Part shown: positions 34,764-58,660 of the stretch, one piece after another
How positions within the stretch are numbered: position 1 is the stretch's first letter
Layout of the letters: each line of letters opens with the position of its first letter
Assembly: GCF_947623445.1 (NCBI RefSeq)
Contig: NC_135247.1
Coordinates: forward strand, 18,168,501 to 18,232,500
Origin: Clavelina lepadiformis
Lineage: Eukaryota > Chordata > Ascidiacea > Aplousobranchia > Clavelinidae
Direction of reading: 5' to 3'
DNA: 64,000 nt
Notes under the pieces: model-generated
The model's database searches: none
What the model was told of the DNA's origin: nothing
Seen by the model: the letters and a program-made list of their open reading frames with translations, nothing else
Made by a program: the position numbers and the translations under genes

Positions 34764-36462
34764 ATGTTGCGTCTTACTTTCTGGCTTGGCCTGTGCGCAT
34801 CACTTACTTCGAACCTGGTCACTCAAGGTCTGACAGAGTCAGACGAACGTGTTTGTTTCGCCGTCACTCAACTTCGGGGTACTGGGGACGGACAATGCGC
34901 ATGCTCGAACGATGACATTCGGCGCATTATAAGGGACGAACTAGGAGATGTGTTAGGTGAGCAGATACCTAAGCATTGTTGAATTGTTGTGAAAGCATCA
35001 GTGAGTTTTTACGTCATTTGACGTTGCTCTATTGGTGGAAAAGAGTATGCATAAAAATTTTTGGCTTGTGGTCTCGGATGCCTATAGGCATATTTTGACT
35101 ATAAAGCTATCTCTTGTGCAGATTCAATCGACCGGTTGCAAGACATGATCTCTGACATTAATTGTGGTGGAGGCGGCTCAACTGGCTCATCCCCTGGTTT
35201 GTGATGATTTTGCTGATACTGTATATGTTGTTACTATTGACAAATATCAACATATGACGAGTATAATCTGACGGTTATATAATATTTCACATTTTAAGTT
35301 AATGATTACTGATTATGACGTGACACTGGCAAATAGATGTAAAATCAAATATATAATTGTAAAAAATTAAAACACGTTTCACCTTGTTGTATAATAAAAC
35401 GTCATTAAAAGTTTCGTCAAACATTTCTTGCATTTATCTGATTTTTCAAAAGCATTAAATATCTTGAAGGTCCGAGCAGAGATCCTTGTAACCCTGACCC
35501 TTGCTCTGGTCAAGGAGTCTGCAGAAGGCAAGGCAACAACAACTTCTTATGCCAATGCAATCCAGGCTTTGTCGGGCTAGATTGTTCTGCGAGCAATGGT
35601 GAGAAGCAGAGCAATATACAGCATAGCGGCTAAGTCTTATCTTAAAGAATATTTTCAGCTCTTAAACCAGACCAAAGCAATTCATGAATGCAACTATTAT
35701 AACTATTATTAACTATTATAACTATTATTAACTATTATAACTATTATTACTACTATTATTCCAACTATTCATAACCATTTGAAAATCGTTTTCTCATAAA
35801 ATCTGTTTGTCTACGCTTTGTAGTGGGTAGCTGCGCGATTTCTGTCGGGATAACGGACAGTCGTGTACCGGACAGCGCAATAACAGCTTCGTCGATCTAT
35901 TCTCACCACTACGAAGCTCATTACGGGAGACTTAATCGAAGAGTAGGACGTGGACAGGCTTGGTTCCCGGCAAGACGTAGGCTTATTTGCAGCTGAATTT
36001 CTGAATTTACTCGATCTTTTCTAACTATTTGCATCTTTTCTTCAGCTTATCGTGCTGGTGAATGGATTCAGGTCGATTTAGCTGCACCGACAACTGTTGT
36101 TGCCGTGGCAACGCAAGGTAGCCCACGTGGTCATTGGTGGGTTACCAGCTATAAGGTGAACTACAAAGCGGCGACAAATTTGTTCCAGGCCGTATCAAGC
36201 AACACCGGAAGCTTGGTAAGAATATTTTGCCAAATTGTACACTGTTAAACCGATGAATTTTTAGCCACGTTTGACAGTGCTTCCAAACCAATGTTTTATA
36301 TCAAACCAGATCTTCCAAGGCAACAGGGACCGTAACACGGCAGTCCGAAACAACTTCGCCAAACCGGTTAGGAGCAGATATTTCCGGCTTGTTGTCCAAA
36401 CGTGGCACAGGGAACCAGGACTTCGTCTTGATTACTTCACTTGCCAAACAACTGTTTTTTAG
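34764..36462 (+). CDS. Secreted EGF-like plus F5/8C (discoidin) domain protein
   Basis: A secreted 290-aa protein. Exons are 34764-34956, 35122-35196, 35470-35598, 35824-35976, 36046-36215 and 36310-36462; all phases fit. The N terminus (MLRLTFWLGLCASLTS) is a signal peptide. A short polar region follows, with a likely helix (DDIRRIIRDELG..RLQDMI) and a glycine-serine linker. One EGF-like domain then has six cysteines (CNPDPCSGQGVC..CQCNPGFVGLDC). The rest is one discoidin domain running from GSCAISVGITDS to LRLDYFTC, including EWIQVDLAAPTTVVAVATQG and RYFRLVVQTW. Discoidin domains bind carbohydrate, lipid or matrix ligands, so extracellular recognition or adhesion is likely, but the ligand is unknown. 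Two decayed relatives of its last exons lie at about 45.8-46.5 and 60.5-61.1 kb on the minus strand. An AATAAA is at 36610. Confidence 0.88.
35692..35762. repeat. ACTATTATA-type microsatellite
   Basis: A short-period repeat of AACTATTATAACTATTATT units within intron 3 of the discoidin gene. It is likely to vary in length between individuals. Confidence 0.85.
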
Positions 36463-36915: not shown

Positions 36916-39900
36916 TCAAACAGAGCCGCCACACATAACAACATCGTAAGCATTTTCGGAATCAAACGCGTGGTTGGTTGCTGTGACATTTTCATAAATT
37001 GCCTGGCTTTTGTTTTGAAAAGGTTTCTCATAAATACGGTCAATTGCTACAGGGATATGATATACTTCGTCTTCCCTTATATATTCTACTTGATCTGAAG
37101 AAAGTAAATAAAATAAAGATAGAAAGTTTTAGGCTCAAACTTTCCCAACTTATGTTCTTATATGAACTGCTGTATTTAGGTGTTTATCAGGAAACGACTA
37201 AAACAAAAAAAAACATTCCTTTTTTCGCTTCTGCTGCGAATGGCAATTTTGGTAAACTTACGTAAAGTAAAATTTCCAGGTGGAGTTTTTTCTTCGTTTT
37301 TCCGTGGACATTGACACAAGTATCTGAAAATGGTTTATTGCTAACTTTTGTTGGTAGTTGGCAAATACAAGGATGAATGAACTGACAAACAAACAGACGG
37401 ACGGATGGACAAACAGGTAGATAAGTAGATAGAGAAATGTTTATGTTTAAAACAGTACAGAGTTAGTTAGTTAGTTTCTCACTTGGTTTTGTAAATCAAC
37501 ACTCCCACCATTAACAGTACCAGGAACGTAGGCAGAACAACTGCGACGGAAATGTAGGTCGTCTGAAGCTGAGTGCTGGGTGTTGTAGGGATTGGGTTAG
37601 GATTAGATTTTGAAACACAATATCCCGTAATGTCGAGTGCATTGCTCGTTCCTAAGCAATTGTTGGCAAATATCTGTAATATGTAAGTAATACACAATGA
37701 ATTTATCTGAACGTTGGTCAATTTTCCAGGTTGTTTATTACCGCTCGCATTAAAATTTATATAAATATCACAAAGCATAAATAATAACTAATAAAAAAAA
37801 AAACAGAAAAACTGATAGAAAAAAATAAACTAAACTAATGGAAAAACCATTTTTTCCCACAATAGCAGTATAAACAAAATTTTAAATGGCTCGCCAACAA
37901 GACGGTAGTCTAATGAAAGTGTTGTTCAAATTTCTCAGATCTCGAAAAGGTGAACACCTTATTAAGAAAACATCAAGATTTAAGTTGATAGGATTTTTCC
38001 AAACCTTAAAACTTATGTTCCTGTTATATCCATATATAACCAGTTGCTCAGATGGTATCGTGTATCGAGCGTTTCCAATCTCAAACAACCAGGAAGTGAC
38101 GTTTAATTTTATGCTCGAGTTGAAAAGGTTGTTTGCAACGATCTATGGAGGTGTTAATATTAATATGACGCGTTGGTGTCGTTACGCTTCATTAAGCAAG
38201 TTATTGTTCCAAGTTAAGACACAATTTTTTTGTTTTACGTCAAACAGCTAAGACTACCTCATAAGAAGTGGTGTTTCCGTCAGCATTGTCACGTGACCAT
38301 TCTATGACACAATCATCGGATGCAGTATTGTTTGCTACGTAAGCCGTCGTAACTGCTTCCGGTTTCCCATAACTTGTTGTCACGTAAACATCATCTGACT
38401 TTAAGTACTTCGTCGAACACGAATGCCAAAATTCTGCCTAGATGAAACGACACGTATGTAATGTGTTAACAAACAGAAATGAAAATCATTTATAAAACCC
38501 TTCCAAATAATACTGAAAAAACACTATATATTTTGTAATTTATTACTTGCATTATCAAAAAAAAAATGTTTTTTTTTTAACTTACGTAGGAATGCTAAAA
38601 TTTGGCTAAACAGAACGATATGGAAATGTGTAGAACAACTATAAACTAACTCAAAATAGTGTGTATATGGTTTAATTATTTCAAAGTGTTATACTTGCTT
38701 TTGCCCTATATTTATTGCGTTTCTCCCTAGCGGACGATTACGCTTTTTCGTGTTTAATTAAGCAAGTGTGTCTTTTTCGACTTGTTTCTACAGGTAGTCG
38801 CACGGTCAGTTTTTATATGGGAGCTCCTGAAATGAGCTGTGTCAACGAAACTTAACTAAACTGTTTTTAAATAAAAGATGTGCCTGTAAATCTGTAAATC
38901 AAAGAGCGGGGACAACAAAACGTAACAAACGCATAAACTAATAGATTTGTAAAACTTTCAACAAATGTTTTTAAGTTGACTTACAAAGATTCTATATGTT
39001 GTTCGTGGCTTCAAATTTGGAACAATAAAAGTCCCCAATGTACCATTAATCAGATGAAAGACGGGTCCCACATGTATCTACACATGAATAAACGTCATAT
39101 TTTAATAGTCGCTTTAAAAACTTTTAAATACTATTTGAAATTTGCAAAATTACATTTAACGTGACATTTTCATTCCCAGAAAACAAACTTTTGTACAAAG
39201 TCAGATTCCACGAAACTAGAACCGACGTGGAGTTGCACATAATTGCTTCAGCTTGAATAGAAACTAAAGACAAGAAAATGATAGACAACGATCTTGTAAT
39301 ACCTATGAGATTAGTTTCGCAATTTTGTTCAAAATACGGTTGTTTTTTGTAATTTACGTAACTTGGTCAAACACTATTTTATTTGCCACTAACGTTGAAT
39401 TGAGTAAGATATTTTGTGCACAGTGTAAGGTTAAATTGATGGAACAAAACATGGAACAAACTTACATTTGATCTGACACGCGTAATAATAAGACGTTGTA
39501 CTTCCACATTCAACTGCACTGGCCACCCAGTCTACGTCGTTGTAGCGAAGTGCGAGTTGTTGACATTTGTCTTTGTTTGCTGGTGGAAGATCAAATGGAA
39601 ATGAGTTGACGACGTGGTTGTCCGATAACCAATCAGACTGATTTACGGCAGATCGGATGCCCGTTTGGATATGTAAATCTGGTAAAGATTTTAAGTCAAA
39701 TTTAACAAAACAGAACAAACAAAATATCTTCAAGCACATCGATGAGTAGGAATGGACAAATTGAAATGACCAGGTGTCGCTAAATATCGCCATCAAAGAC
39801 TTGTTCAAGTTTCATAGATTTATGACGTTTTTAGTTTTGTTGTTTAAACCAATTAGTAGTTTCGTATTTCTAGGTTTGCTTGGTCAGCCTGGACGTGAAC

Positions 39901-41391
39901 CTGCTGTAGCGCATGCGCTGTAATTAAGTTCTGCACTTTCCTTCTTGTTTTGCTGTAGAATTATTCCCAATATTCTTGATGGAATATATGAGCACTTCGT
40001 TGAGCATGCAGAATGATTTAAGGTGAAGTGTAGTTTACTGCTAAGCCGATAGGCTTAATTACGTATACGCGTAGCAGACACGTGACATGAAATAACTTCA
40101 ACATATTAACGTCTCTCTAAAAACTGCATTGCGGTAAAAACCTACATAAATTATTGCGAGTTTGTCATAAATTTCAAGTATTTTATTCCTAAACGTAAAA
40201 AAGTTCAGTGATTGACAAAATTGTTTTCATGCCTGGGTGGTAAATAGGAATTCTCACCTGGAATGTACAGAGGTGAAAGCCGGGTGTCATAGTTAACTGT
40301 CCTGGGCCACTCTGTAGTAGATGGTTCATCAGACAAAGAAAGTCGAACCGAATATGCAGAATTATGATATCGATAAACTGGTTTAGTTCCTCGGTCTTTC
40401 TCTCCTCCGTACAAAGTGAAGTCGTGTGTCCATCCATCAGTGCAATTGGTGTTTTGCACAGACCATTTTTGCCATACTTTATAATGCTGGTTGTAGGAAG
40501 CTTTGCAAAATACAAACTTTGCGTTGTATTCTGCTCTAGGTCTGCAAAACATATTCACAGTGTGGTCATATTATACATTAAAAACTACATCAATTTTAAA
40601 TCTACTGCATTCTTTATGATTTATTTTACTTTTTGTAGAGTTTGAAAGTAGGGAAAGACGAATCCAAACTCCCAAGTCCATTAAATGTTCCCTTAAGCAC
40701 ATATTTGTAGTAAACAGTGTATTGATATACTTCCACTTCGCTTAAACCTGCTGAAGTACAAATAACGAAAAATTGTTTGCATGTGGTTGTAAAGTAACAA
40801 ATATGATTTCTGTTGCATCACAATCAAGGTCGCACCGATCTCATAAATTTCGTTCATCTTTTGTTTGATGTCCGCTGCAGTTCGAAGATCCTGGAAGTGA
40901 GCCAACCTTCCTCCCATGGCTGCGCATTGCTTTTCAGCTCCGAAGAAATCCAACTGATCATGTGACATGGCGTAGAACGTCTCTCCTACGCGCACGGTAT
41001 TGTTTGGGCATTCTTGAGACACAAAATAAATTCGAATTGTTTTCGCTTTACTTAACTGTTTTATCAACAGAATGTAATCATTGACGTATTTGTATATATT
41101 TGGTAAAAAGGTTTTACCGATATAGGAATTTTTCGGCAAAAGAAAAGATAAAAGTGAAAAAACAAGAAGCAAACGCCGGTAAAATGAATTGCTTAAACGC
41201 AGCATACAACGATTGTGTATAGAGGCAGAAACAGATCAAAAATTGGTAAAATTTCAGAATTATGTTTATAAATATACTTTCACAATAAACAATATCCGTT
41301 ATTTTCACTTACCAGCTTGTGACAACGGAACAATCCACAGAAGTAATGTTACTAAAATAACACTTTTTCTTAAAACGTAGCAATCGTCCAT
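36916..41391 (-). CDS. CTLD / fibronectin-III-like receptor with short tyrosine-rich tail (left member of the pair)
   Basis: A predicted type I membrane receptor of 561 aa. Exons on the minus strand are 41391-41313, 41012-40836, 40747-40630, 40541-40258, 39678-39466, 39263-39154, 39077-38985, 38437-38258, 37673-37483, 37323-37262 and 37094-36916; all phases fit. The signal peptide contains [11 protein letters not shown]. Residues ~27-85 start a C-type-lectin-like fold ([18 protein letters not shown]). An insert of about 125 residues follows, and the fold then closes with [27 protein letters not shown]. About 130 residues of fibronectin-III-like strands lead to a membrane segment near 459-479 (ISVAVVLPTFLVLLMVGVLI). 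The ~80-residue tail has several tyrosines (EDEVYHIPV, DRIYEKP, QAIYENV, ENAYDVV) and no enzyme domain. YENV fits a Grb2-type SH2 site (YxN). The gene is divergent from the phosphatase receptor at 47910, with which exons 1-8 are nearly identical. The protein family name is unknown to me; cell-surface recognition is inferred. Confidence 0.85.
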
Positions 41392-41769
41392 TTGTGCAAA
41401 AGAATTGTGGAACATAACACCTTTTTATATCGATAAATTGACCTGTGCATAATAAACAAATATAATGCTTAATTTTCGTTATAAATGAACGGAAAATCAA
41501 CTTTAATTATGAATCGAATATTATTATGAATATTAAATTTGAATGAATGAATTATAGCAAGGAAGAAGTATACTGTCTTTCCCTGCTCCGGCAAAGCTAT
41601 AAACTTTCAGAAAAGTATAAAGACCATAACCATAACCCTCGTTGCAAAACGTGTTTATCGATACACTTTATACCAAGGAACTGTCAAGCCAAGACTGTAA
41701 CCCCACTGTACAGTATCTATTATGTTCTTGTGTTTGGTGTTTGAGCGGTTTTTTTTCTCGCCGCATTAT
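37999..41769 (-). repeat. Left arm of a large inverted repeat
   Basis: Read on the minus strand, this arm matches 47210-51080. Similarity runs from GCGGCGAGAAAAAAAACCGC (upstream of the promoter) through exons 1-8 and their introns to a point about 260 bases after exon 8. The arms differ by substitutions and by indels, notably about 400 bp in the upstream part present only in the right arm. The transmembrane exon lies outside the arm. Confidence 0.88.
41422..41429 (-). promoter_or_regulatory. Candidate TATA box of the left receptor gene
   Basis: TATAAAAA on the minus strand lies 31 bases before the ATG, in the context TTATCGATATAAAAAGGTGT. The same sequence at the same distance precedes the right gene. 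With a usual TATA-to-start distance of 25-30 bases, the 5' leader would be only a few bases long. Confidence 0.5.
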
Positions 41770-42586
41770 CATTTCAGGTCTTGGAAACTTAACTTTAACA
41801 TTCGTTTGTTTATAGGGAAAACTTTAGGCTACGAAGTCGGTCAGTGAATTTTTTAATGTTGGTTTTTATTGTCACAAGTTGTGAATCGAAATCAAAACAA
41901 TCGAAACCTAAGAACCGTTCCATGTCCAGTCAATTTTAATAAAATTGTTGTTGATGTTGGCACAGAAACTATCTGTTAAATTGTTTGTATTGTGATGAAT
42001 TGTTAAGCAATAAACTAGCTATACCAATCAATTCTCATCGACAAGCAAACAGCCATTAGTCATGTTCATTCTAAATTAAAATCAAATGTGACAAACTAGG
42101 CAAAATTTTGCAAACATACTACTACAGTGTATACAAGGTTGAAGTGACTTGAAGACATATAATGTTGGTCAATCGCGTTTATATCACTGAATACTATATG
42201 TCAATATAAGCCATTACTATCAGCCGTTTTATCAATTTGAAGTTTATCAACCTGATTATTTTGTATAAACATTTTGCAAAATTATACTTGTTAATTCAAG
42301 GTAGGCTACCGATTTGTTTGCGTACTTAACCCTGGTTATAGCCTGACGTCATTGACCGAAGTCATGAATTGAAAACACGTATTAAGGTAAATCTCATGTA
42401 TATAATGTTTCTTAACACGATTCAAAAAACATTATATAGACTCTAAAATCTTATCAATGTCTTTGCTCTTCACATCAAGGCTGTCATTTCATATTAACTT
42501 CATTTTAACTGACAAAATAAACTGCTTTCATTTGTGTAACAAAATATTGTTAACTTTATGTTAAAAATATGACAGTAAGATAAAAT
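41770..42586. other. Spacer between the left arm and the second MULE
   Basis: AT-rich and free of recognisable genes. It forms part of the 5.4-kb spacer between the inverted arms. The 9-bp target duplication of the MULE (AGATAAAAT) sits at its right end, 42578-42586. Confidence 0.5.
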
Positions 42587-43299
42587 CGTGACCCGACACC
42601 TTATCGAAAGACACTTTATCGAACGACACTTAATCGAACGACACTTTATCGAAAGACACTTAATCGAACGACACCTGATCGAAACGACACCTGATCGAAA
42701 CGACAGTTGATCGAAAGACACTTTATCGAACCGAAAGTTGATCAAACGACACTTTATCGAACCGACAGTTAATCAAAACGACAGTTGATCGAACGACACT
42801 TTATCGAACCGACAGTTCAAGCAAGATTTTTGCGTGTTTCTCAAACATTGAAACAATGGGTCATTGTGATGTTCAGCTATCTGTCCATGTTTGTTTGATA
42901 AAGTTAGATTTTGTAATTTTTGAGATATTGTGATATTTATATAATTTTGCTCTCTCTCCGCATTGAAACGTATTACTCATTTACGCACCAATAACTTGAC
43001 TAACTATTCTTTTTCGTTCTCTTTTCACAGCGGGGGCGCGGCGTAACAAGAAGAATTTATAGAAATGTGTCACTTTTAGAAATACCTAATTTACACTAAA
43101 TTCACTTTCTTTAGTTTTACAATTATGATGTATACAGGAAGCCAGATGATGTTTCTACTAACCTGTAATAATCTCATCGTCTACGACGCATAGGTTTCTA
43201 GTAATTAACGATTGCAAATGTGTGTGCGGGGTTGGCCACACCTAGTTTTTTTAGTAAACTCGCGAGCCTGGTTAGGATAGGGTTAAAAGATCCACAATT

Positions 43300-43392
43300 T
43301 ATTGAAACAACTGACGATATGCACTGTTAAAAGAACGACAATTTATTAAAAGAACTGACAACATGCACTGTTAAAAGCACGACAACTGACGA
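43300..43392. repeat. Two-copy tandem repeat of about 45 bp inside the second MULE
   Basis: TTTATTGAAACAACTGACGA and TTTATTAAAAGAACTGACAA begin two consecutive ~45-bp units, each followed by ATGCACTGTTAAAAG. They lie just downstream of the transposase remnant on the minus strand. Confidence 0.6.
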
Positions 43393-43420
43393 AGTGCACA
43401 TTTCAATCGCATTCATTTAA

Positions 43421-43747
43421 TCACAAGTTGTGTGCAATTGCTCGAAGATAACTTTTTATGTCCATATTTGTTGAGTCATAATTTTCAACTATGCTCCTCA
43501 GACGTTGGTTGACAGCGTCGTAGCGCTTCTTCCGTGGTGGGCCATCGATTCCAGCACTCAATTGTTCAATTAACAATTCGTTGGAACCTTGTTCCTGCTT
43601 AATTTTTTTGACGAGTCTGCGAAGCGTCGGATGGGATATTGAGACACGCTTGCTGAACGCATTGTGCCATCCTTCAATGCTATTATTCGTTCGTGGAAGG
43701 TCATCTTGAACCCGGTGGAAGACATTCACATGTGTACGTGCTACCAA
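43421..43747 (-). pseudogene. MULE transposase remnant (C-terminal part)
   Basis: A 108-codon frame matches the C-terminal portion of the transposase at 11531. It includes the Glu segment (TNNSIEGWHNAFSKRV against [16 protein letters not shown]) and a shared ending (IKSYLRAIAHNL against [14 protein letters not shown]). The first two catalytic aspartates and the DNA-binding domain are missing, so the element must depend on an enzyme supplied elsewhere. Confidence 0.8.
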
Positions 43748-44394
43748 GCATCGAAGCCATTTATTTTGCGCTGTCGGTCAAGCTGGGATAAAGACCACTT
43801 TCAAGAAGCTACTTTGTGTAAAAGTCAGACAGCGACATGCCCCTTGCTATTAAATTTTGCCTTCAATTCCTTACTCTTTGTATCTATAATGACTAGTCTA
43901 GTCTACTGTACAGACAATCTCGTACTTAGTAATTCTCGTGCGTATTCTTGTGATATCTTATTAATATGTGGGCGGGCCGGCCGCCATGCGAAATCGAACA
44001 CTTTATGATACAAATATAAAATATAGATATAAAATATAAATCGTCAACTTTATGATATATACATCACAATTCATTAATGCACACCATTACAAAGACCGCA
44101 CATCACAATGGCTCATTGTTCCAATGTTTGAGAAACACGCTAAAATCTTGCTTGAACTGTCGGTTCGATAAAGTGTCGTTCGATCAACTGTCGTTTTGAT
44201 TAACTGTCGGTTCGATAAAATGTCGTTCGATCAGCTGTCGTTTCGATAAAGTGTCTTTCGATCAACTGTCGGCTCGATTAACTGTCGTTCGATAAAGTGT
44301 CTTTCGATCAGCTGTCGTTTCGATCAGGTGTCGTTCGATAAAGTGTCTTTCGATAAAGTGTCTTTCGATAAGGTGTCGTAGTACCAGATAAAAT

Positions 44395-45780
44395 AACTTT
44401 TGTCGCAATCAAGTCTAACTACTACAGCAATTCACATATTAGTTCTTTCAAAGTTCTTCCTTGTACCGTTTTGGCTTTATTTACCCTTAAATAATATTTA
44501 TTTCTTCGTGTGTACATGGCGCCACATTTGCCATCCTTTGTTGTAGCCAAAGCTGCTTTGATTGAAAATAACTTTGTGACATTTTGAGTGGGCGACCATT
44601 TGCACCAGCAATTTGATTATGTGTCGGCGTTTGCTGCTGCTTCAGTTGCTACGGATTATTAAATGGCTTCCTTTGCCCTGTTTACAGCGAATATATATCA
44701 CAGTATGGCAGCAAAATGATGGTATTGATTTTCATGCTTTGAAAGTATGTTAAAAGCATCATACGCGCTCAAATTAAATTTTTGCCATCGAAATCTTGAA
44801 ATTGCACAACATTCGGCATGATTATACCGAAGCGCAACCATTGTCACGATAAAGAAAAGGTTTTGCTAAAGACCACAAATTCATTTGCACAAAAAGTCAA
44901 TTTTGCCGAAGGTATCACTGTGATTGTCTTGGAAAGGCAATGTATTTAAAAAGGCTGAGTTCCCGACCATGATTAACTGTAACAATTTTGACTGTGTTTT
45001 ATTCATTGACAACACCATTTTCATCCTTTTGACGTCACCACCTTAGGTATTTTACGAGCGCGTGTTTTATCCTTAAGTACTTTATGCGTTCATCACTGCC
45101 TTAAGTATTTTACACTTTTGTGTTTAATCTTTTATTGCTTTGCCGTGTTTTATAGATGCCTGTCTGTACCTCGCTTGTATCTAAGACTAGTGTCGTTTGC
45201 GCCGATAGTTCAGTTTATAATTTGTCTGTGTCCGCTTACTGCGGTGCCGAAGAGTAAAAGTATGATGGATCTTTCCTAAAAGTAAAGTTGTTGTCGCGGT
45301 TCACGGTTATTGCGGCACAGAACCAGGCTGAAATCAGGGAAAGGTTATTCTCGTTACATGATTAACTACTTGATAAACTTGTATTAAATGCAATGAAAAT
45401 GGGTGAAGTATCTAATCAATTTTAAAAACAACTTCAAGCTAAACACTCATGTGATACTGGTAGCCAGGTCTCTGCTAATTGATTATTCGGTTACTTATCA
45501 AATCTGTGTAAATATCATTATTTAAGAATAATTAAAGGAAAAGCAACTATCTAGTATTTAACCAAATTCATCTGCAAACAATTGACTGTTTAAGAAGCAG
45601 CAGCAGCAGGAAAAGCCTAGCAAACTTGACTTGGTAAACTAAACCAAGATATCACTCAGAAAATATGTGAAAAATAAATATAGTTTCTGCGCCGACATAA
45701 AAAAATTTTTGTTAAAATTGACCGAACTTGGAACGATTCTAAGGTTTTCATAGTAATTTCATTGAATATCCGAAGTTTTG
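44395..45780. other. Spacer sequence, nothing recognisable
   Basis: About 1.4 kb of AT-rich sequence between the second MULE and the decayed discoidin copy. I see short low-complexity stretches only (for example CAGCAGCAGCAGG near 45600), with no open frame of note and no transposon ends. Confidence 0.5.
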
Positions 45781-46550
45781 TTAGATTCCTGTCTGGAACC
45801 AGTAACCGCTAAGTGGTGTTGTAGAGCCACTCAACTTTAGTAGAAATGTTATTAAGAGAAATTCGCGTTGTCGAAAATCACAACACACAGTAAATGATGT
45901 ACGAAGAGCATAAACAGTATTAAAAATCTGGATTATCAACCAGAAATATCTTGCAGTCTCTGGGGGTAGAAATTCCGTCCAAACTTCGGAGTATCTATTC
46001 CGGTTACCTTCAAATATCTGCACAGGTTTAAGAACAAATTTTAAAACTCAACTGAAACAGTTTAAACCAATCACTACTTACAACTTAATACTGTAGCGTA
46101 TTATTATTTATGAAAGAGATTTGTACATAGATTTGTGTATTATGTATATGATATAAGACGCGTTAATAACTTACCGAATATCGCCGTGAATCTCCTAAAC
46201 TACTAATTGATCAGATGCCAGAAAATTTCAGTTCCCATAATTCAGCTTGTAGCCTGATGACCAAGTTATCATCACCATTCATCGACCAAGAAACAGCTAT
46301 CGTCGGATTTTTCAAGTTTATACCTGGTGTCACTGACCGAGTGATCAGTCTTATTAGCTTTTTAGGATAAGTTTTGTGCTAAATGGACCAAAAGTTTATG
46401 TTGGTTAAGCATTGGTCAAGTTTGAATCAACATTTCTCTACGAGAATCACAAATCAATTTCAGCGCATGTCTATGATTTCCTATATAACGCTAAAGAGGA
46501 AACGATTCTTATAAGTTGATCCTGAGCAGTATGAAACACTTCTTGATCAC
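45781..46550 (-). pseudogene. Decayed discoidin-domain gene fragment 1
   Basis: On the minus strand, after an acceptor near 46018, the frame encodes IFEGNRNRYSEVW and TARYFWLIIQIFN. This resembles the last exon of the discoidin gene at 34764 (IFQGNRDRNTAV..RYFRLVVQTW), but the terminal Cys-stop is lost and the frame runs on to 45781. Upstream (about 46195-46330) traces such as TWSSGYKLNYGN match the preceding discoidin exon with frame breaks and stops. About 46490-46550 matches 61075-61135 outside coding sequence, so this and the copy near 60.5-61.1 kb come from one duplication. No functional product is expected. Confidence 0.65.
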
Positions 46551-47209
46551 AGATGGGTGATTAAGATATATTCATTATGAAATTTGGAGCGACTCAGTAC
46601 AGACAATTTTATTGTAATTTACCTTCTGAATGCCTACATGCTGCTCTATGAGCAAGTATTTCTGTCTGGACAACATCTTGTGACAATAGAAGCCAACATT
46701 ATAAGACTAACTGACCGGCTTCATAGCCTATAATGGTTAATTTTTCTTGTTAAATGGACTCAAAGTATAGTGAGACATAAGTCATTTTTTAATCAGTCTC
46801 TCAAACATAAACCATTAATAGCGGAATCTATGACTACCCGTAGCACTCAAGAGGGAATAATTCGTGTAATTTGTTCACCAATAATATGAAATAATTTTCA
46901 CTAGATACTGACCATGAGGATAATTATTGAAATGAAACATGTGTCGATTTAGGTGCAATAAATTACAGCCAATACATTTATGTGGGAAATGTGTAAAAAT
47001 AAGACTTTGCTACATGGAAGTTTTTTCTATAACTGAAGTAATGTGATTCAATGATATATTATAAAATGCGTAAAAACTGCTCTGTGTTTTGTATGATGCC
47101 CTGCTTACCATAAAACGTGTTGATGCGGTTACTTTTACCTGTTTAAAGTTTTGAGTCGAGTTGAGTTTTACAAACAATAGTAAAGCTGAAGTCCCCAAGA
47201 CTTATTATA
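46551..47209. other. Spacer left of the right inverted arm
   Basis: AT-rich sequence without recognisable coding or repeat content. It ends where the inverted arm starts at about 47210. Confidence 0.45.
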
Positions 47210-50200
47210 CTAATGCGGCGAAAAAAGAAACCGCTTAAACACTAAACACAAGAACATAAAAGATACTGTACAGCAGGGTTACAGTCTTGGCTTGACAGTT
47301 CCTTGGTATAAAGTGTTTCGATATACACGTTTTGCAACGAGGCAACTGGTTCCATTTTTCTGAACAGATTATGTCTTGCTATGGTCGAATCGAATAGATC
47401 ATTACAACTATAGCGAGCAATACAAAACATGCGGTTATTAATGGCACCAAAGTCATCCAATATGAGAACTATCCTGTGATGGGCTTCTGACGTCAGTAAG
47501 ACGGAACAAGGAAGCACTTCAGACGGAAATGAGATGTGAGGGGGCCTTCAATAAAAAGACCAGGTTGCGTTTGCTGAAATGGCCTTTTAAGATTGAGAAT
47601 ATTTACTTGCAACTTTGCTCATACTGTTAGGTTAGGGTCAGCGCTAGTCAGCAGACAGCATAGAAATTGTCTTGGTAAATCGCCAGACGAAGGCAAGAAT
47701 AGCAAAGTATCACGTATATGCAAAAATACCATTTGCGTTTTTAATTAACCGCCTTAAGAAATGCAAAATGATCTCAATAATCACAAATGACAAAAGTAAA
47801 CTGATTTTTTGTTCATTTATAACGTAAATTTAGCATTATATATGTTTATTATGGGCAGATCAATTTATCGATATAAAAAGGTGTTATATTCCACAAATCT
47901 TTTGCACAAATGGACGATTGCTACGTTTTAAAAAGAATTGTTATTTTAGTAACAATATTTCTGTGGATTGTTCCGTTGTCACAAGCTGGTAAGTGAAAAT
48001 GACGGATATTGTTTATATTGTGAAAGTATATTTATACACATAATTCTGAATTTTTACCAATTTTTAATCTGTTTCTACCTCTATACACAATCGTTGTATG
48101 CTGCGTTTAAACAATTCATTTTATCGGCGTTTGTTTTTTGTTTTTTCACTTTTGTCTTTTCTTTTGTCGAAAAATTACTAATTCGGTAAACATTATTTAC
48201 CAAGTATATACAAATACGTCAATGATTACATTCTGTTGATAAAACAGTTAAATAAAGCGAAAGCAATTCAAACTCATTTTGTGCCTCAAGAATGCCCAAA
48301 CAATACCGTGCGCGTGGGAGAGACGTTTTACGCCATGTCACATGATCAGTTGGATTTTGTCGGATCTGAAAAACAATGCGCAGCCATGGGAGGAAGGTTG
48401 GCTGACTTCCAAGATCTTCGAACTGCAGCGGACATCAAACAAAAGATGAACGAACTTTATGAGAACGGTGCGACCTTGAATGTGATACAACAGAAATCAT
48501 ATTTGTTACTTTACAACCACACGCTAACAATTTATCCTTATTTGCACTTCTGCAGGTTTAAGCGAAGTGGAAGTATATCAATACACTGTTAACTACAAAT
48601 ATGTGCTTATGGGAACGTATAATGGATATGGGGCTTTGGATTCGTCTTTCCCTACTTTCAAACTCTACAAAAAGTAAAATAAATCATAAAGAATGCAGTA
48701 GATTTAAAACTTTAAAATTGTTGTAGTTTTTAATGTATAATATGACCACACTTTGAATATGTTTTGCAGACCTAGAGCAGAATACAACGCAAAGTTTATA
48801 TTTTGCAAAGCTTCCTACAACTGGTACTATCGCTTATACCAAAAATGGTCTGTGCAAACCACAAGTTGCACTAATGGATGGACACACGACTTCACTTTGT
48901 ACGGAGGAGAGAAAGACCGAGGAACTAAACCAGTTTATCGATATCATAATTCTGCATATTCAGTTCGACTTTCTTTGTCTGATGAACCATCTAATACAAC
49001 GTGGCCCGGGACAGTTAACTATGACACCCGGCTTTCACCTCTGTACATTCCAGGTGAGAATTCCAATTTAACACCCACGCATGAAAACAATTTTGTCAAT
49101 CACTGAACTTCTTCACGTTTAGGAATAAAATACTTGAAAGTTATGACAAACTCGCAATAATTTATGTAGGTTTTTACCGCAATGCAGTTTTTAGAAAGAC
49201 GTTTATATATTGAAGTTATTTAATGTCACGTGTCTACTACGCATATACGTAATTAAGCCTATTGGCTTAGCGGTAAACTACACTTCACCTTAAATCATTC
49301 TGCATGCTTAACGAAGTGCTCATATATTCCATCAAGAATACTGGGAATAATTCTACAGCAAAACAAGAACGAAAATGCAGAACTTAATTACAGCGCATGC
49401 GCTACGGCAAGTTCACGTCCAGGCTAACCAAGCAAACCTCGAAATACGAAACTACTAATTGGTTTAAACAACAAAATTAAAAACGTCATAAATCTATAAA
49501 AATTGAACAAGTCTTTGATGGTGATATTTAGCGACACCTGGTCATTTCAATTTGTCCATTCCTACTCATCAATGTGCTTGAAGATATTTTGTTTGTTCTG
49601 TTTTGTTAACTTTGACTTCAAATCTTTATCAGATTTACAAATCCAAACGGGCATCCGATCTGGTTTTAACCAATCTGATTGGATATCGGACAACCACGTC
49701 GTCAACTCATTTCCATTTGATCTTCCACCAGCAAACAAAGACAAATGTCAACAACTCACACTTCGCTACAACGACGTAGACTGGGTGGCCAGTGCAGTTG
49801 AATGTGGAAGTACAACGGCTTATTATTACATGTGTCAGATCAAGTGTAAGTTTGTTCCATGTTTTGTTCCATCAATTTAACCTTACACTGTGCACATAAT
49901 ATCTTACTCAATTAAACGTTAGTGGCAAATAAAATAGTATTTGACCAAGTTACGTAAATTTCAAAAAAACAACAGTATTTTGAACAAATTGCGAGACTAA
50001 TCTCATAGGTATTACAAGATGTCTATTATTGTCTTGTCTTCAGTTTCTATTCAAGCTGAAGCAATTATGTGCAACTCCACGTCGGTTCTAGTTTCATGGA
50101 ATCTCACTTTGTACAAAGATCTGTTTTTTGGGGATGCAGACGTCACGTTAAATGTAATTTTGCAAATCACAATTAGCATTTAAAAGTTTTTAAGCGACTA

Positions 50201-51080
50201 TTAAAATATGACGTTTATTCATGTGTAGATACATGTGGGACCCGACTTACATCTGATTAATGGTACCCTCGGGACTTTTATTGTTCCAAATTTGAAGCCA
50301 CGAACAACATATAGAATCTTTGTGAGTCAACTTAAAATCAATTGTTGAAACCTTAAATAATTAATCTACTAGTTTATGCTTTAAAATAATTAAACCGTAC
50401 ACACACACTATTTTGAGTTAGCTTATAGTTGATCTACACATTGCCAAATCGTGCTATTTAGCCAAATTTAGCATTTCTATATAAGTTCAAAAAAAAATAT
50501 TTTTTTAAATAATGCAAGTAATAAATTATAAAATATAACTTATAATATTTTTTCAGTATTATTTGGAAAGGTTTTAGAAATTATTTTCATTTCTGTTTGT
50601 TAACACATTACATACGTATCGTTATATCTAGGCAGAATTTTGGCATTCGTGTTCGACTAAGTTTTTAAGATCAGATGATGTTAACGTGACAACAAGTTAT
50701 GGGAAACCGGAAGCAGTTACGACGGCTTACGTAGCAAACAATACTGCATCCGATGATTGTGTCATAGAATGGTCACGTGACAACTCTGACGGAAACATCA
50801 CTTCTTATGAGGTAGTCTTAGCTGTTTGACGTAAAACACAGAAAATTGTGTCTTAACTTTTGTGTCTTAACTTGGAACAATAACCTGCTAAAAGAAGTGT
50901 AATGACACCAAAGGGTTATATTAATATTAACACCTTCATAGATCGTTGCAAACAACCTTTTCAACTCGAGCATAAAATTAAACGTCACTTCCGGGTTGTT
51001 TGAGATGGGAAGTACTCGATACACGATACCATCTGAGCTACTGGCTATATATGGATATAACAGGAACATAAGTTTCAAGG
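47210..51080 (+). repeat. Right arm of a large inverted repeat
   Basis: Inverted counterpart of 37999-41769, carrying the promoter and exons 1-8 of the phosphatase receptor. It has about 400 extra bases around 47360-47800 compared with the left arm. The two arms face away from each other with 5.4 kb between them. Confidence 0.88.
47872..47879 (+). promoter_or_regulatory. Candidate TATA box of the phosphatase receptor gene
   Basis: TATAAAAA lies 31 bases before the ATG at 47910, in the same context as in the left gene. Conservation within a young inverted repeat is weak evidence by itself, but the motif and position are good for a core promoter. Confidence 0.5.
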
Positions 51081-54000
51081 TTGGCAAATCGCTAATACGC
51101 TAGAAATAGAAACAGCAATATTTTTTTTGAACCGGAAGAATTTTCGTTCTTGGTCTTTCCATCAACTCAATTTAAATTTAATGGTTTTAATTAATTTTTT
51201 TAGGCTAAATTAGCAATAATTTTTAATAGAGTATGAAATATACCAGTATTGTATTTTCAGATTATTGCTTACTCATGTGAAGGCTCAAGCATGCCGATGT
51301 CGGTCAATGGTTACTGCGTCGTTGTCCCACCAGTCACTACTCCCGAGGCCTCATCATCTAGCGTTGAAGTGTATATTGTTGCTCCGTCACTGGTAACGTT
51401 GATTCTCTTACTGGCAATAACTGGAGTTTTTGCTTACAGAAGGTGAGGCGTTGTGTCATCTCAAATCATAAATTATCATAAGTAATTCATTGCTTTCTTA
51501 AGAGAATTCATTTCGTTGTAGGAACACCGGTCGGTTTCATACTTCAACAAAGAGAGATGTGTCAATTGATCCAGGTAATAATTTTGTATCAGTTGATTAA
51601 TTATTGTTTTACTATGAATTTATTTTTATTCGTTTTTATCTTGATTAGTGCTAACAGTAATTTTCTAAGTTAATCTAATCCAGTGCTTGTCAACACTGGA
51701 GGTGTAATTGAAATTAACATTATTAACATAAATATTAACATAATTTGTATTGTTGTGCATTGTACTGTCCTTTGTATAAATTTCAATTTATTCGTATTTT
51801 AATTGGTGTAATTTGTTAGGTAATGATTGCAACCACTGTTCTAATCGTTCAAATTTTTGTAACAACTTAAGTTTTGTAAATTCTTTTAAGGAACAGTTAT
51901 TCAGCCACGGATGCAAGATAACGTTACCCCTGCAGCAATGAAGGTTGAATTTCTGGGTTTTAATCAGTTCAAACTCTTGTAAAATTCAAACTCATTTACG
52001 AATTTAAAACTTAATTACAATGCTTTGCTGTTACACAATTTTTCGACGTACATAGCATATAATAATGTCAAGTCTTTTACAGGATGAAGAAACCGTTGTT
52101 GAAAGAGAAGGTATAGAGCCTGTGTATAATAAAAGACATGAAGCAAATAGTACGTGTTACAAGCGATACAAAATACTGTGCAGAGCGTTGCTGAAATGTT
52201 TTAACACTCACTCGTTACTTTAGCAAACTTGGCGTACTCGGAAGAAGTGAGCGTGTACGAAAACGTGTCATCGACCAACCTCAGTGGGGGTGTGCACATT
52301 GATAAACTTGAACATTTCTACAATACACGTAGCTCCAACGATTTTCAAAGCATCAAAGATGAATTTCAGGTTTCTTAAATATCATTATGTAGATAGAGTA
52401 TATGGAATCTGCTTTAAAGTTTTAATTTTCAAGTGCACGAGTTTAATTTTGACTGATCATGTTTGGTCGATACCAATTATTAAAGTATAAAAAAATTCTT
52501 TTACTGCTTGACAGAGTATAAAAAAAAGGAGCGCTAACAAACCACACGAGGCGGCAAATCTGAACAAAAATAAAAAGAAAAACCGCTACAAAAATATTTA
52601 TCCTTGTAAGTAAAATGATCCAAATTCTTGTTTATGAACCGGACGTTAAATCATGGTTCTGGTAAGACAATGTTCTTACTTCAGTGAATTTTTACAATGT
52701 TTTGCTTTTGCTTCTGTAGTTGATGATTCGAGAGTTGTGCTGCAAAGTGATGACGATTACATCAACGCCTCTCACATTAAGGTGTATTAATGGGTTCGAC
52801 CGAATATGTATGTATTGAAACGGTTGCTTTAATGGATGTTGCCATTTTAGGGCTTCTGCGGAAAAAAGACATACATTGCAACACAAGGAGCAAAAGATTG
52901 CACCATTCCTGACTTCTGGCAAATGGTTTGGGAACAAAACTCATCAGTGATTGTGATGCTGTGTAAATTAAGAGAAGAATCCAAAGTAAGAATTAACTGG
53001 GGATAGTCTGATTTTTAATCTGAATGCAATGTAAACCAACCACTATAAAATTTTCTTTTTGCTGCATGCTTGTCGCTACAGATAAAATGTTCAGCATATT
53101 GGCCGGTTCAAGGATCTACAGTGACACATGGCAACTTTACAATCAAGACAACATTTGAAGATGACTTGGGTTGGGTCATCACCCGTAGGTTTTGCGTCAT
53201 AAATAAAAGTTCACAGGTAATGATAAATTCAAATAGTTTTGCCTTAACGCTTTCAAAGTGGACATTAACATACTTCTGAAAACCTTTGAACCTATGCAAC
53301 AATTACACTGTGCTGCGTTTGAAAATTTTTTTTCATAGGTCAAAGATGTTTTAACTGTTTCTGAATCGATTTTTTGCGCTGAACTCAAAAATGCAACCAG
53401 TTTTTTTCAATCAGGTCAAGTTTTTTTTCTATCACATATTTAATTATGCTAGCTTTGGTCGTTATTGTGCACAAAGAAACTAATTTCTGGGGTAGCTTAA
53501 TTGGTCATGCATGTTGTCAATTTTCGCAAGATGGTATTTTTATTTGAATGTAAGGTTTTTGCAATGACAGCCATTTTAAATACTACAAAAATATAATGAC
53601 ACAGTTGAAATAAAGGCACTTACAACTAACCAAGAAAGCTTCCTAACACATAATTTTGTTCAACGGCGCTCAACCTAAAAGTAGAAGTTAATATGTTACA
53701 TTATAGACACGTAAACACTTAACATCACAAATGTGTTTTAAATGTGAAATACTTGCAAACATCAATGTGTGAAATAAAAACGAAGTGTTCAAAATAGCTT
53801 AACACAGAAAGCGTTGTGCGGCACATGATGATATTACGACATTAAATGCAATAACAATATAAATACAAATGATTTATGCTGACAAAAAGTGTTGCTTCAA
53901 AGATTTTCTTCTATGTGTGGTGTTGGGAAGATCTCTTTTTAAGCACCAACAGTAATCTGCAAGCATGTTTACATCCCAGCATCCTTGGTACCTTTCTTCC

Positions 54001-57000
54001 ATATGGCGAAGGTCTTGGTGGAATCTCTCTCCCTGTTCTTCGCTGTAGTCACCACAGTTGTCAGGAAAGTAATCTAAATGCGAACTCAGAAAGTGCATTT
54101 TCACAGACATCCGAGCTCCAAGGGATTGAAAACTTTCAAGCAGCTCTTTAACCTGTGCTTCATAATCAGGGATTCTATGCTTTCCAAGGAAGTTTGAAAT
54201 TACTGCTCGAAATCCTGTCCATGCTCTTTTTTCTACTGCACTCATGTGTGCAGTAAAACCTTCGTCTTTCATCAGCTCACGGATCTATGGCCCATCAAAG
54301 ACTCCTGCTCGTAGCTTCGCTTCAAAGATGCGGGGAAATTTCATTTGTAAGAACTTGAAGGTTGGGCCATCTTTATCAAGTGCTTTGGTATAGTTTTTCA
54401 TGAGACCAAGTTTAATGTGGAGAGGTGGCAAAAGAATATTTTGTGGATCAACTAAGTAAGCAAATTTGACATTTTTAAAACCAGGTGTAAAACTTGTTCT
54501 GGGTAGCCAGCTAATTTGTGTGTAGTGGCGATCATCAGCCCTCGAGTCCCACAGACACAAAAAACATGGATGTTTAGTGTAACCGGCCTGTAACCCAAGA
54601 AGTATTGAAATCATTTTTAAGTCACCACATATTTTCCATTTGTGTTGGCTATACTGAAGAGATTTCAAAAGGTATTTCATGTCTTCATAGCATTCAGTGA
54701 GCTTCACTGAATGTCCAACAGGAACAGAACCAATCTTATTGCCATTGTGTAGTAATACTACCTTCAAACTCTTTACAGATGAGTCCAAAAACAATCGCCA
54801 TTCTGCCGAACTGTATACTATGCCCAAAGCTGATATTAATCCTGAAACATCTTGACATCATCTAGGGAATGGTCTTCGTCATAATTGAAATATTTTCTAA
54901 ACTATTTATCTTCATACCGATACCAGAAATATGTGGTGCATGGAGCTAGCAAGTTGTTCTCACGTAGTCGTGATCCTAGGAGCTGAGCGGATTCTTTGGT
55001 GAGATTTAAATCTCGTGTTAGGTCATTCAGCTCAAGCTGTGTAAGAGGCTTCGGTTGGCTTGTACTTTGCTCTGCATCCCATGTGTCTTGTTCACTTGCT
55101 TTGCTCGCTGCAGATGAACAACACTCCATTTCACTTATTTCTCCAGGTGGTTCTGGAACAGGAATACCAGGGCCATGTGGTACTGGTTTCATGGCTGAAG
55201 GAACATCAGGGTACTTCACATGTTGTTTGTTCTTCCGGTTTATTCCTAAAATGAAAAAGAACACTTTTACTCTTAAATCAAGCAATTAATGAAAATGCCT
55301 CCATACAGTGCAAGTATCAGCATACCTTGTAAGTTGGTCATGCAAAAATAACAATCAGTGACATGGTCTTTTCCTTCTCTCCATACCATAGGAATACCGA
55401 AAGGAAGGCTCTTTATTTTCTTTAGGCTCCATAATCTCAAGTTTTCAACGCATGCTCTACAACATATGTGCGGAGCAAATGCCTTGTCCTGATCGCCTAG
55501 TTTTACTCCAAAATACGCATAATATGCTTTTTTAACAAACTGCGTAATTTTTGCTTGGCGACTGCGCAGGGTGACCTTGCCACATATGTAACAGAACCTG
55601 TCTGGATCATTTTTGCACTTTCTCATTGTACTGTAAAAACAAATCATCTAAACTGCACACTAAACTAGCCTGTAAAAACAAGTTCAGATGTTTAACTTTT
55701 CAAGCACCAGGTGTATTCGTTATGTTCTTCTCATTGTGATGTCACTGAAGTTTCATCAAAACTTAATTCAAAAACTAAATCATTTTTATGACACCACAAA
55801 TCTCAATCGCAAACGCTGAAAGCTGAAGTTGTCAAAAATTTCAAACGCAATTTGCCAAAAAACTAGACCTGATTGAAGAAAACGGATAACAGTTTTGGAT
55901 TCAGCATCAAAAAGTACACTAAGAACCGTCAATACTTTATTAACCTAAAAATTAACGCAGCACAGTGTTATCATTGTAATTGTAACAATTGTAACATTGT
56001 AACAATTGTAAAACATTTCTTCATGTCGTTTGCTTGACAGAAGAACAGAGAAATCTTCCACCTCCAACTTGTATCCTGGCCAGATCATGGCGTGCCAACT
56101 GCAACATCTCCTCTCATGTATCTTCGTCGAATGGTAAAAGAAGCGACAGATGATGAACCAAATCAACCTGTCATCGTTCATTGCAGGTATATTTCTAACT
56201 ATTACACATCTTGTCTAGCCAAAGAAAACAACCGCTGCGATTGGCTATTACAGCCCTAAACTAAAGCAAAGGCTCACTATACAGTATAATTGAACAATAA
56301 ACGTTAATTTCCAAACAATTTGAAGTGTATTCTATACAAAGACAGTGTGTACTTAGTTGCCACAACATGTAAATAGTTTTTATTTTTTCTGTTCTTTGAT
56401 TCAGTGCTGGTGCGGGTAGGACTGGTACCTTTATTGCCATGGATATTCTCTTTGATGAATTGGATCAGACTTCAGTTGTGGATGTTCCGGGTGCAATAAC
56501 TCGCATGAGAGAAAGGAGAGTGGATATGGTTCAAACTGAGGTTAGTGTTTCAGTTTAAATCCGTTGTAATTTCAAGTGTGGTGTTGTGGCTTACAATTTT
56601 CAGGATCAATATGTGCTGGTATACAAACTGCTTGTGGAGCATGCTGTCTACAAAGATACTGACATATCAGCTCCTGATTATCTGAAGTTATCTCGACAAA
56701 GTCATTGGTAAGAACATGACATACAAAAATATCATTACAAGTGCACAAACTAAACTGTCTTCAAGTTAATTGAACGCAAAAATAGAAAAATAAATTAACT
56801 GTAAATTGTCTATTGATATATTTTTAATTTAAATCCTTGCTGTTTCACATGTTTAAAGGGATTCCAGATTCGAGAATGAATTTAAAATTTTTACGAGATT
56901 GTCGTCAACAGAACAATTTTCTTCTAATTCACCAGAAGGGACACAGTCAAGCACTGGTAAGGTTTCTATTGGGATCGTTAATGCGTAAGGCTTAGCAATT

Positions 57001-58660
57001 TTTGTTTGCTAATATGAAGCAGCTTTTTTACTTAAAAAGCACTGTAACCAAACCCTTGTGTTAATTTAGGTGATATCAACCGATTTAAAACTTCTTTCTC
57101 TGGGTTAAGCACAAAAAGACTAGAGGTAAAATCTGAAACCTAGCTATATATCCATCCACATTTAAAAAAATACAAATAGCGGTAAGTTTAACTATGCTAC
57201 TGAATTTTCTTGAAATATGTCTCATTTATGTACCAGCGTATTTCAAGTTTTCTGGGAAACATATTTGCGGTGAGTGGCCCCGTTCTTGAAGAAGAAAAGC
57301 AATTTTGGGACTTTGTAGCTGACCTAAACACAAGCGTTTTAGTCTGCCTCGAGACATTGGTATGATTTTGAAATTTGCTAAAGAAAAAGTTTTATTTTTC
57401 TTTCACTTGGTGTCGCCATATTTATAAAAGAATTTAAAATTGTCTTTTAATTCACTTAAGGAAGCGGATTTGGTTACAAGATCCACTGAAAGAATTAGCT
57501 CCCAGATTCCAAACTCTGACAGGATTCTCAGCGTTGAGAACGTCCAAAGAAGTGAAGGTTTAGTAGAAAGAAAAGTTACGCTTTCCACCTCCCACACAAA
57601 GGTAAAGCAGATGTTTAAGATTAAGGTTGTGGTTTAAACAAGCTTCGTTTATACATAACATCTTTGCATACTTTTTCTTTTACATAAAACTTAACTATAT
57701 ATGTGTAGTTTGTTTTACATCATAGTTCCTTTTTATAACATCACTTTTTGAGTTTCGCTGCTGCGCGTCCACCTCCAACTATATGCACAGCCCAATCATT
57801 TCTTATGAGGATATAACGAAATTAAATTACATTAATTGTTTGTTTTTCGTCGATCAGATACAATTAAATCATTTGCAAGTAGAAGGCTGGAATGGGGAGG
57901 AAGCCAATCCTGACAGTAGTTATTTGTCAAACGCCATTAACATGTTGCAGACGCTGGTGAAAGAGAAAGAAAGAGTTGTTGTTTATTGCAGGTGATCGCT
58001 TTTACTGTCTAACTTTTCTTTCAAAACATCATTACTGTTCTTTAAATTTTTATATGTTATTTTAATGAGGTATGACGTTGTAATTGTAAATATAACGACA
58101 TTTTAACTTACAAGGGACGGTTGTACACGAACGGGAACTTTCATTGCTCTGCTTAATCTGGTCGAAAGATTGAAAAGTGAAAGCAGGATTGACGTTTTCC
58201 GAACAATCAAGGACCTGAGAGACATGAGACCAAATATGGTCAATAATTTGGTAAGAAATGTGTCAGAGAGTCAATTTTTAAAGGGGTCAATTTTTAAGTC
58301 AATTTTTTAAATTTTTCGAAGGCAAAGTGAAAATATTCCACTTAAGAAATTAGGTCCATAAATTTGATAACTGTCAAAATGATTTTGAGAGAATGACTTA
58401 ATTTTGCGAATAAACTAAAAGTTTTGCCAAAAACTTGTGCTTGGAGTTCTTATATCATATTGTTGCTATTCTCTTATTCTTTTTATTGTTTGAATTATTT
58501 CATTACTGTATCAGAATTATAACTGAATCATTATTATATTATGCTGATTTTTCATCGATCTTCTACTTTGTACTTTTGTTTTCAGGACCTATACAGATTC
58601 TGTTACAAGTTCATGGAAAACTATTTAAAAGATTTCCAGACTTATGGGAATTTTCAGTGA
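47910..58660 (+). CDS. Receptor-type protein tyrosine phosphatase with CTLD / fibronectin-III-like ectodomain (right member of the pair)
   Basis: Type I receptor phosphatase, 1108 aa in 27 exons. Exons are 47910-47988, 48291-48467, 48556-48673, 48770-49053, 49633-49845, 50044-50153, 50229-50321, 50632-50811, 51261-51442, 51522-51574, 51891-51943, 52083-52149, 52224-52369, 52515-52605, 52720-52781, 52851-52985, 53082-53216, 56041-56186, 56405-56540, 56604-56707, 56859-56956, 57070-57125, 57237-57359, 57461-57601, 57858-57991, 58115-58250 and 58586-58660; phases fit throughout. It has a signal peptide, a CTLD with ~125-residue insert, FnIII-like strands and one membrane segment (~456-478). Phosphatase domain D1 has all key parts: [30 protein letters not shown] (Asp741), [10 protein letters not shown] (Cys774) and the Q-loop MVQTEDQY. 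D2 keeps [10 protein letters not shown] (Cys1038) but lacks the WPD aspartate and Q-loop Gln, as in regulatory D2 domains such as that of CD45. The juxtamembrane region has tyrosines, including [10 protein letters not shown]. Intron 17 is enlarged to 2.8 kb by a transposon-like insertion in opposite orientation. Confidence 0.92.
53874..55647 (-). mobile_element. Decayed transposon-like coding unit of a widespread uncharacterised animal family, in RPTP intron 17
   Basis: Four minus-strand pieces line up, from right to left, with one protein type that I recognise from many invertebrate genomes and know only as uncharacterised. Piece 1 (55647-55328) has paired cysteine motifs ([22 protein letters not shown]) suggesting zinc binding. 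Piece 2 (55245 to about 54905) has the proline-rich [19 protein letters not shown] and NDLTRDLNL. Piece 3 (54827-54285) has [43 protein letters not shown] and [15 protein letters not shown]. Piece 4 (54272-53874) has [12 protein letters not shown] and [12 protein letters not shown] splice (donor after 55328, acceptor near 55246) joins pieces 1 and 2. At least two in-frame stops and a frame break separate the rest, so it is dead. High copy number in other genomes suggests a transposable element, but I see no terminal repeats here. Confidence 0.7.

Follow-up and report, generated by a model that had tools for sequence, protein, structure and literature searches.

In a stretch of 64,000 nucleotides from the ascidian Clavelina lepadiformis (genome, 209 Mb; assembly GCF_947623445.1, contig NC_135247.1, here labeled C8, positions 18168501-18232500; hereafter the window), two receptor genes are arranged head to head with 6.5 kb between them. 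The left gene, L (minus strand, 36916-41415; 12 exons, 615 amino acids), and the right gene, R (plus strand, 47910-58660; 28 exons, 1154 amino acids), share nearly the same ectodomain, with exons 1-9 displaying 93.7% identity in DNA and 88.8% identity in protein over 464 codons. Beyond it, R continues into two receptor tyrosine phosphatase domains, D1 and D2, and L into a cytoplasmic tail of 82 residues with 6 tyrosines. An earlier note, made from the letters of this DNA, had described two such genes with near-identical ectodomains, one ending in a tyrosine-rich tail without an enzyme and the other in a receptor phosphatase with intact catalytic motifs in D1. This description holds in each part, and its outer coordinates are exact, the L stop ending at 36916 and the R stop at 58660. 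As detailed below, evolution of L and R as paired receptors is well supported by the sequences compared. Positions in L and R are given in window numbering, and those of the neighboring gene B and of search ranges in the numbering of the C8 contig. The two genes comprise the following parts.

41313-41415, minus strand: L exon 1, signal-peptide-like (by eye); start at ATG 41415, or at the in-frame ATG 41391 as in R
40836-41012, minus strand: L exon 2, N-terminal half of a C-type-lectin-like domain (CTLD)
40258-40747, minus strand: L exons 3-4, DUF7023-like inserted domain, a phase 1-1 cassette with the highest omega
39466-39678, minus strand: L exon 5, CTLD, C-terminal half
38005-39263, minus strand: L exons 6-9, FnIII-like region; alignable with R at the DNA level as far as 37996, 9 bp into intron 9
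37483-37673, minus strand: L exon 10, stalk and tail-type transmembrane segment; 92% identical to P0003, 85% to P0004, and 28.6% to R
36916-37323, minus strand: L exons 11-12, cytoplasmic tail with six tyrosines, including IYENV and AYDVV, and stop
47910-47988, plus strand: R exon 1, signal-peptide-like (by eye)
48291-48467, plus strand: R exon 2, CTLD, N-terminal half
48556-49053, plus strand: R exons 3-4, inserted domain
49633-49845, plus strand: R exon 5, CTLD, C-terminal half
50044-51079, plus strand: R exons 6-9, FnIII-like region
51261-51442, plus strand: R exon 10, phosphatase-type transmembrane segment
51522-52369, plus strand: R exons 11-14, juxtamembrane region, with SVYENV in exon 14
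52515-56707, plus strand: R exons 15-21, phosphatase domain D1, catalytic motifs intact
56859-58660, plus strand: R exons 22-28, D2, WPD lost and C(x5)R kept

In both gene models the frames are open, the introns are GT-AG, and the phases of exons 1-10 are identical; a 56-base exon at 57070-57125 is needed to carry the R frame through D2. Five deposited C. lepadiformis proteins, P0001 to P0005, derive from an assembly other than that of the window. P0001 corresponds to R and lends independent support to the whole R model, having the same length of 1154 amino acids with only 10 differences (99.1% identity over the full length). The earlier note had named an assembly artifact in the inverted arm as a possible objection. 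The arm is probably genuine, since the two arms differ by about 7% and the other assembly also encodes the transmembrane type of L (in P0003 and P0004). A tblastn search with P0002 (E ≤ 0.01, C8:18158901-18280000) gave no phosphatase match over the 46 kb past the end of L. The spacer between L and R contains short repeats in inverted orientation, together with a frame that resembles a transposase by eye (window 42594-44379). Public polyA RNA-seq for the species is given as ERR10908613 in the available text of PMC10884593.

The DNA likeness of L and R falls into two blocks of 93% and 89%, introns included, with a gap of about 250 bases in intron 7. It stops 9 bases past exon 9, at the junction between ectodomain and transmembrane segment, and the two genes are unalignable beyond this point. 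A genome search with the R ectodomain (E ≤ 0.01, all 33 candidates scored) returned matches on C8 and on a second contig, C6, only. On C8 there are L, R, and a third gene, B (C8:18233334-18241294), which lies shortly past the right edge of the window and to which P0002 corresponds (ectodomain 99.1% identical). Of the remaining deposited proteins, P0003 and P0004 carry a tail-type transmembrane segment and P0005 a phosphatase-type one, with P0004 combining a gene-B-type ectodomain and an L-type transmembrane segment. Over exons 2-9 of the ectodomain, identity is 87 to 89% within the group of R, L, and P0003, 84.5% between P0002 and P0004, and 65 to 66% across the two groups. The transmembrane exon of the C8 family is divided along another line, being 85 to 92% identical within the tail type and 52 to 85% within the phosphatase type (alleles aside), and 24 to 33% across types.

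The two parts of these genes thus give conflicting trees, computed on 9 of 11 rows with P0001 and gene B omitted as near-copies. Ectodomain data group the sequences by pair and reject grouping by type (log-likelihood difference, 310; approximately unbiased [AU] test, p 0.003), while transmembrane exon data group them by type and reject grouping by pair (log-likelihood difference, 112.5; AU p 6e-7). The transmembrane tree is built from about 66 residues, with bootstrap values from 49 to 97. The paired-receptor architecture put forward in the earlier note is borne out by this conflict, by the recurrence on C6, and by two C8 ectodomain pairs bearing the same two transmembrane types, the first seen in the window's assembly and the second (P0002-P0004) in the other. 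The tree conflict and the sharp boundary together argue for homogenization of the ectodomain between partners; the boundary alone could also be given by partial duplication. In addition, one loop encoded by exon 4 recurs as a block in ectodomains that otherwise differ, with P0003 carrying the gene-B form of the loop on an R/L-type ectodomain (by eye).

On C6, a diverged phosphatase receptor (C6b) is accompanied by two intact genes lacking the protein tyrosine phosphatase (PTP) domains, C6e (609 amino acids) and C6a, and by two fragments, C6c and C6d, the latter near a short run of N. Within the stretches covered, reaching about 8 kb past C6a, neither C6e (on its strand) nor C6a is followed downstream by a phosphatase match. 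The ectodomains of C6b and C6e are 79.8% identical and their DNA is 79 to 82% alike, with homology stopping inside the transmembrane exon.

From the other assembly come no fewer than five C8-type proteins, whose records all give a contig of 8,466,430 bases. Since the window's assembly holds three C8-type genes, gene content may differ between individuals, although copies may also have been lost or collapsed in an assembly. The earlier note had also listed high polymorphism of the ectodomains among its checks. Between the two assemblies R is not hyperpolymorphic, its exons 1-9 showing 2 differences. Variability may lie in the tail-type gene if P0003, the nearest deposited tail-type relative of L and its putative ortholog, is indeed its counterpart, the two ectodomains being only 87.4% identical.

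The ectodomain again reads as CTLD-like and FnIII-like, with a refined layout: exons 2 and 5 are the apparent halves of one CTLD, into which exons 3-4 are inserted, so that the whole looks like a CTLD interrupted by about 130 residues and followed by FnIII-like repeats. When exons 2 and 5 are joined without the insert (four genes tried), Pfam Lectin_C matches C6e with 32.0 bits and C6a with 27.2 bits, above the cut-off of 22.6, and R and L with 16.3 and 16.9 bits, both below it. The insert, a phase 1-1 cassette, is weakly similar to DUF7023 (R, 26.4 bits; cut-off, 27), and exons 6-9 of R reach 24.7 bits as FnIII against a cut-off of 25. The matches of L and R themselves each fall below the cut-off, and the domain names are therefore drawn from the whole family; UniRef likewise names P0003, P0004, and P0005 “C-type lectin domain-containing.” Among nine family members, there were no sushi matches at E ≤ 1 and a single immunoglobulin (Ig) match, to I-set, in one member (E 0.16). 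A structure-based claim for the fold was dropped, the AlphaFold model of P0003 (five sequences) having a mean predicted local distance difference test score of 32.

We compared the ratio of nonsynonymous to synonymous change (omega, from Nei-Gojobori counts with permutation P values) in the insert and in the rest of the ectodomain. Between L and R, omega is 1.5 in the insert versus 0.41 elsewhere (P 0.015). The insert was singled out after inspection of the per-exon values of L and R, and C6b versus C6e is therefore an independent test; here omega is 1.18 in the insert versus 0.39 elsewhere (P 0.0055). A fast-evolving insert points to a possible ligand-binding region.

In the signaling half of R, D1 retains [17 protein letters not shown] and QTEDQY, and D2 retains C(x5)R without WPD (read from the protein). 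Among solved structures, D1 is nearest to PTPRS/LAR and PTPRA, with CD45 more distant; the match to PTPRS has an E value of 8.6e-114, from a score summed over both domains of that chain. A profile of the whole family finds phosphatases only among the best 60 of its 297 matches to solved structures. All three receptor phosphatases examined carry YxN in the juxtamembrane part (SVYENV, SVYENF, and SVYVNT). Intron 18 of R contains open frames resembling transposable elements by eye (window 53874-55647, minus strand), and the flanking splice sites are intact. Gene B reads CTQTG in D2 (C8:18240971-18241106) where P0002 reads CTRTG, and in the window's assembly its D2 thus lacks the P-loop arginine.

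The tail of L resembles part of the juxtamembrane region of R (shuffle P 0.0055), which suggests that L probably derives from a receptor-phosphatase gene truncated in this region. In C6e and C6a, the exons of the tail follow the phase series 2,1,0,1, as exons 11-14 of R do. From the likeness of the L tail and these shared phases, the PTP-less genes look like receptor phosphatases cut before D1, fairly clearly for L and suggestively for the genes on C6. We pooled the three complete PTP-less tails (L, C6e, and C6a; 14 tyrosines) for motif counts, using five patterns chosen after looking at the sequences. YxN, which binds Grb2, occurs at 5 of the 14 tyrosines (shuffle P 0.007), an excess that is not significant in single tails, L among them (P 0.38). 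Pairs resembling the immunoreceptor tyrosine-based activation motif (ITAM), with V allowed, are present in L and C6e and absent in C6a (pooled P 0.00015, for one of the five patterns), and the C6e tail contains two SxYxxV matches of the immunoreceptor tyrosine-based inhibition motif (ITIM) type (pooled P 0.05). No charged transmembrane residue of the kind that would serve an ITAM adaptor was seen by eye in the segments of L, R, and C6e. The deposited tail of P0004 stops at QNKS, part-way through the last exon of L, and the YENV site is consequently missing from that model.

We consider it likely that L and R form a paired-receptor system with a shared ectodomain and distinct signaling halves, in which D1 of R and an opposing kinase would set the state of the L tail. 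Both surface receptors would present one probable ligand-binding ectodomain, kept alike through gene conversion or repeated partial duplication, with the signaling halves held distinct, and the same ligand would presumably engage both. A kinase could phosphorylate the tyrosines of the L tail, which would then recruit an SH2 protein, either of the Grb2 type at YxN or of the Syk/SHP type. The balance between this kinase and D1 of R would set the level of tail phosphorylation, making L a candidate direct substrate and providing a tunable threshold. We infer opposed signaling, each arm having its own presumed sign, and a role in immunity or allorecognition.

Several observations weigh against this interpretation. 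For gene B, no tail-type partner was found in the window's assembly, and of the deposited models, P0003 and P0005 end at the transmembrane exon and P0004 part-way through the tail. On C6, the phosphatase exons of C6b were matched singly, with no full model assembled from them. C6b and C6e remain 77% alike in the transmembrane exon, which places their split beyond this exon and sets it apart from the split seen on C8. The C6e tail has no significant likeness to the L tail (P 0.063) or to the juxtamembrane regions of R (P 0.33) and gene B (P 0.22), and truncation on C6 is for this reason read from exon phases alone. A strict ITAM occurs in none of the three tails and a canonical ITIM in neither L nor C6a, and the YxN excess is not significant in L and C6e together (P 0.066). 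In the comparison of R with gene B, insert omega is 0.5 versus 0.37 elsewhere, with no significant excess (P 0.17). Finally, the synonymous rate (dS) within the insert is low in both L/R and C6b/C6e, and conversion may therefore inflate its omega.

The sign of the R arm could also be activating, as CD45 and RPTP-alpha activate Src-family kinases. D1 of R would in that case strip the inhibitory phosphate from such a kinase, with L acting as a competitor, coreceptor, or substrate scaffold. This arrangement is possible, and we entertain it tentatively: the nearness of D1 to PTPRA fits it, with CD45 further away, and the juxtamembrane YxN of all three phosphatases recalls the Grb2 site that den Hertog reportedly placed at Tyr789 of RPTP-alpha in 1994, although that site is C-terminal. 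Alternatively, L could be a by-product of recent partial duplication, an inverted copy of the 5' half of R placed onto an unrelated or decaying gene, without any paired function. One such event would also give the sharp homology boundary, and remnant-like fragments do occur on C6 (C6c and C6d). We find this unlikely, however, given that the L frame is intact across 12 exons, that its transmembrane type is shared by P0003 and by P0004, the latter having a gene-B-type ectodomain, and that a phosphatase receptor beside PTP-less genes, two of them intact, recurs on C6. Still less probable is that L serves as a decoy binding the ligand of R without signaling and so damping it, as the end of the deposited P0004 tail ahead of YENV might suggest, because tyrosine motifs in the three complete tails together exceed the shuffled expectation, albeit for patterns chosen after looking and without a YxN excess in L alone.

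Returning to the paired-receptor interpretation, vertebrate paired receptors include KIR, Siglec, SIRP, and PILR in addition to the CD300 receptors discussed below. Inhibition in vertebrate pairs works through ITIMs that recruit SHP-1/2, and the activating partner frequently signals through an adaptor by way of a charged residue in its transmembrane segment. In contrast, R itself carries the phosphatase, the ectodomain is CTLD-like and FnIII-like and not Ig, and no charged transmembrane residue is seen by eye. Like PTPRS/LAR, PTPRA, and CD45, R has tandem D1-D2 with D1 intact and D2 degenerate, but it differs from them in its interrupted CTLD-like and FnIII-like ectodomain and in having a PTP-less sibling that shares it. 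This ectodomain is not known from any of the eight human receptor phosphatase subtypes.

A close parallel is offered by CD300A/CD300C, for which the available text of PMC12447643 describes homogenization of the ectodomains by conversion and, in primates, the activating CD300C as the variable member. L and R are likewise adjacent, with near-identical ectodomains, divergent signaling halves, and conversion-type homogenization, and possibly with one conserved and one variable member. Among ascidians, Botryllus fester/FcoR also form receptor pairs with gene-content variation between haplotypes, FcoR being Ig/sushi receptors whose tails contain a YxxI/L/V core motif (PMC12065747, available text). 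The comparison is by domain content alone: no phosphatase domain is mentioned for FcoR in that text, and the IgV, sushi, and C2 Ig ectodomain of fester/FcoR was not matched in the nine family members here. In the available portions of the open-access literature, including PMC12065747 and PMC12373286, we found no description of a CTLD-bearing receptor phosphatase or of a phosphatase paired receptor. Protein searches for relatives in other species returned only C. lepadiformis proteins (2, 3, and 5 of them). The absence of relatives elsewhere is weak evidence, since these searches required shared 5-residue words, and the last of them scored only the 7993 top word-sharing candidates and returned no C6-type protein.

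We regard L and R as a new variety of paired receptors, outside every vertebrate family. Pairs such as CD300A/C obtain their phosphatase by way of ITIMs; a pair with a built-in receptor phosphatase would, if true, represent a second route to this balance of signals, taken in the sister group to vertebrates, with the two loci as natural replicates. A wider proposal, which we advance as doubtful, is that these genes constitute a chordate recognition system in which an enzyme on one arm opposes its substrate, the tyrosine tail of the ectodomain-matched sibling, on the other. In such a system a fast-evolving CTLD insert would be exchanged between genes, the arrangement would have arisen or persisted at both loci, and the whole would serve as a tunicate self/non-self or pathogen receptor set without ITIM-recruited SHP.

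Receptor-phosphatase exons are also clustered elsewhere in the genome, for instance at 4.66-5.05 and 9.45-9.73 Mb on C1 and at 20.60-20.83 Mb on C2, with at least 171 matches in a scan that scored 150 of 194 candidates. A wider expansion of receptor phosphatases belonging to the same family was set aside, FnIII-type repeats being seen by eye in 6 kb of one C1 cluster. Exons or remnants resembling EGF and FA58C (discoidin) domains, named by eye, lie among the receptor genes at window 34752-36462 (plus strand), 45784-46047 (minus strand), and 60515-60971 (minus strand). Further left, the window contains two gene copies at 10124-15895 and 24574-28030 (both plus strand), near-identical by eye, which we take to be aminotransferase-like.

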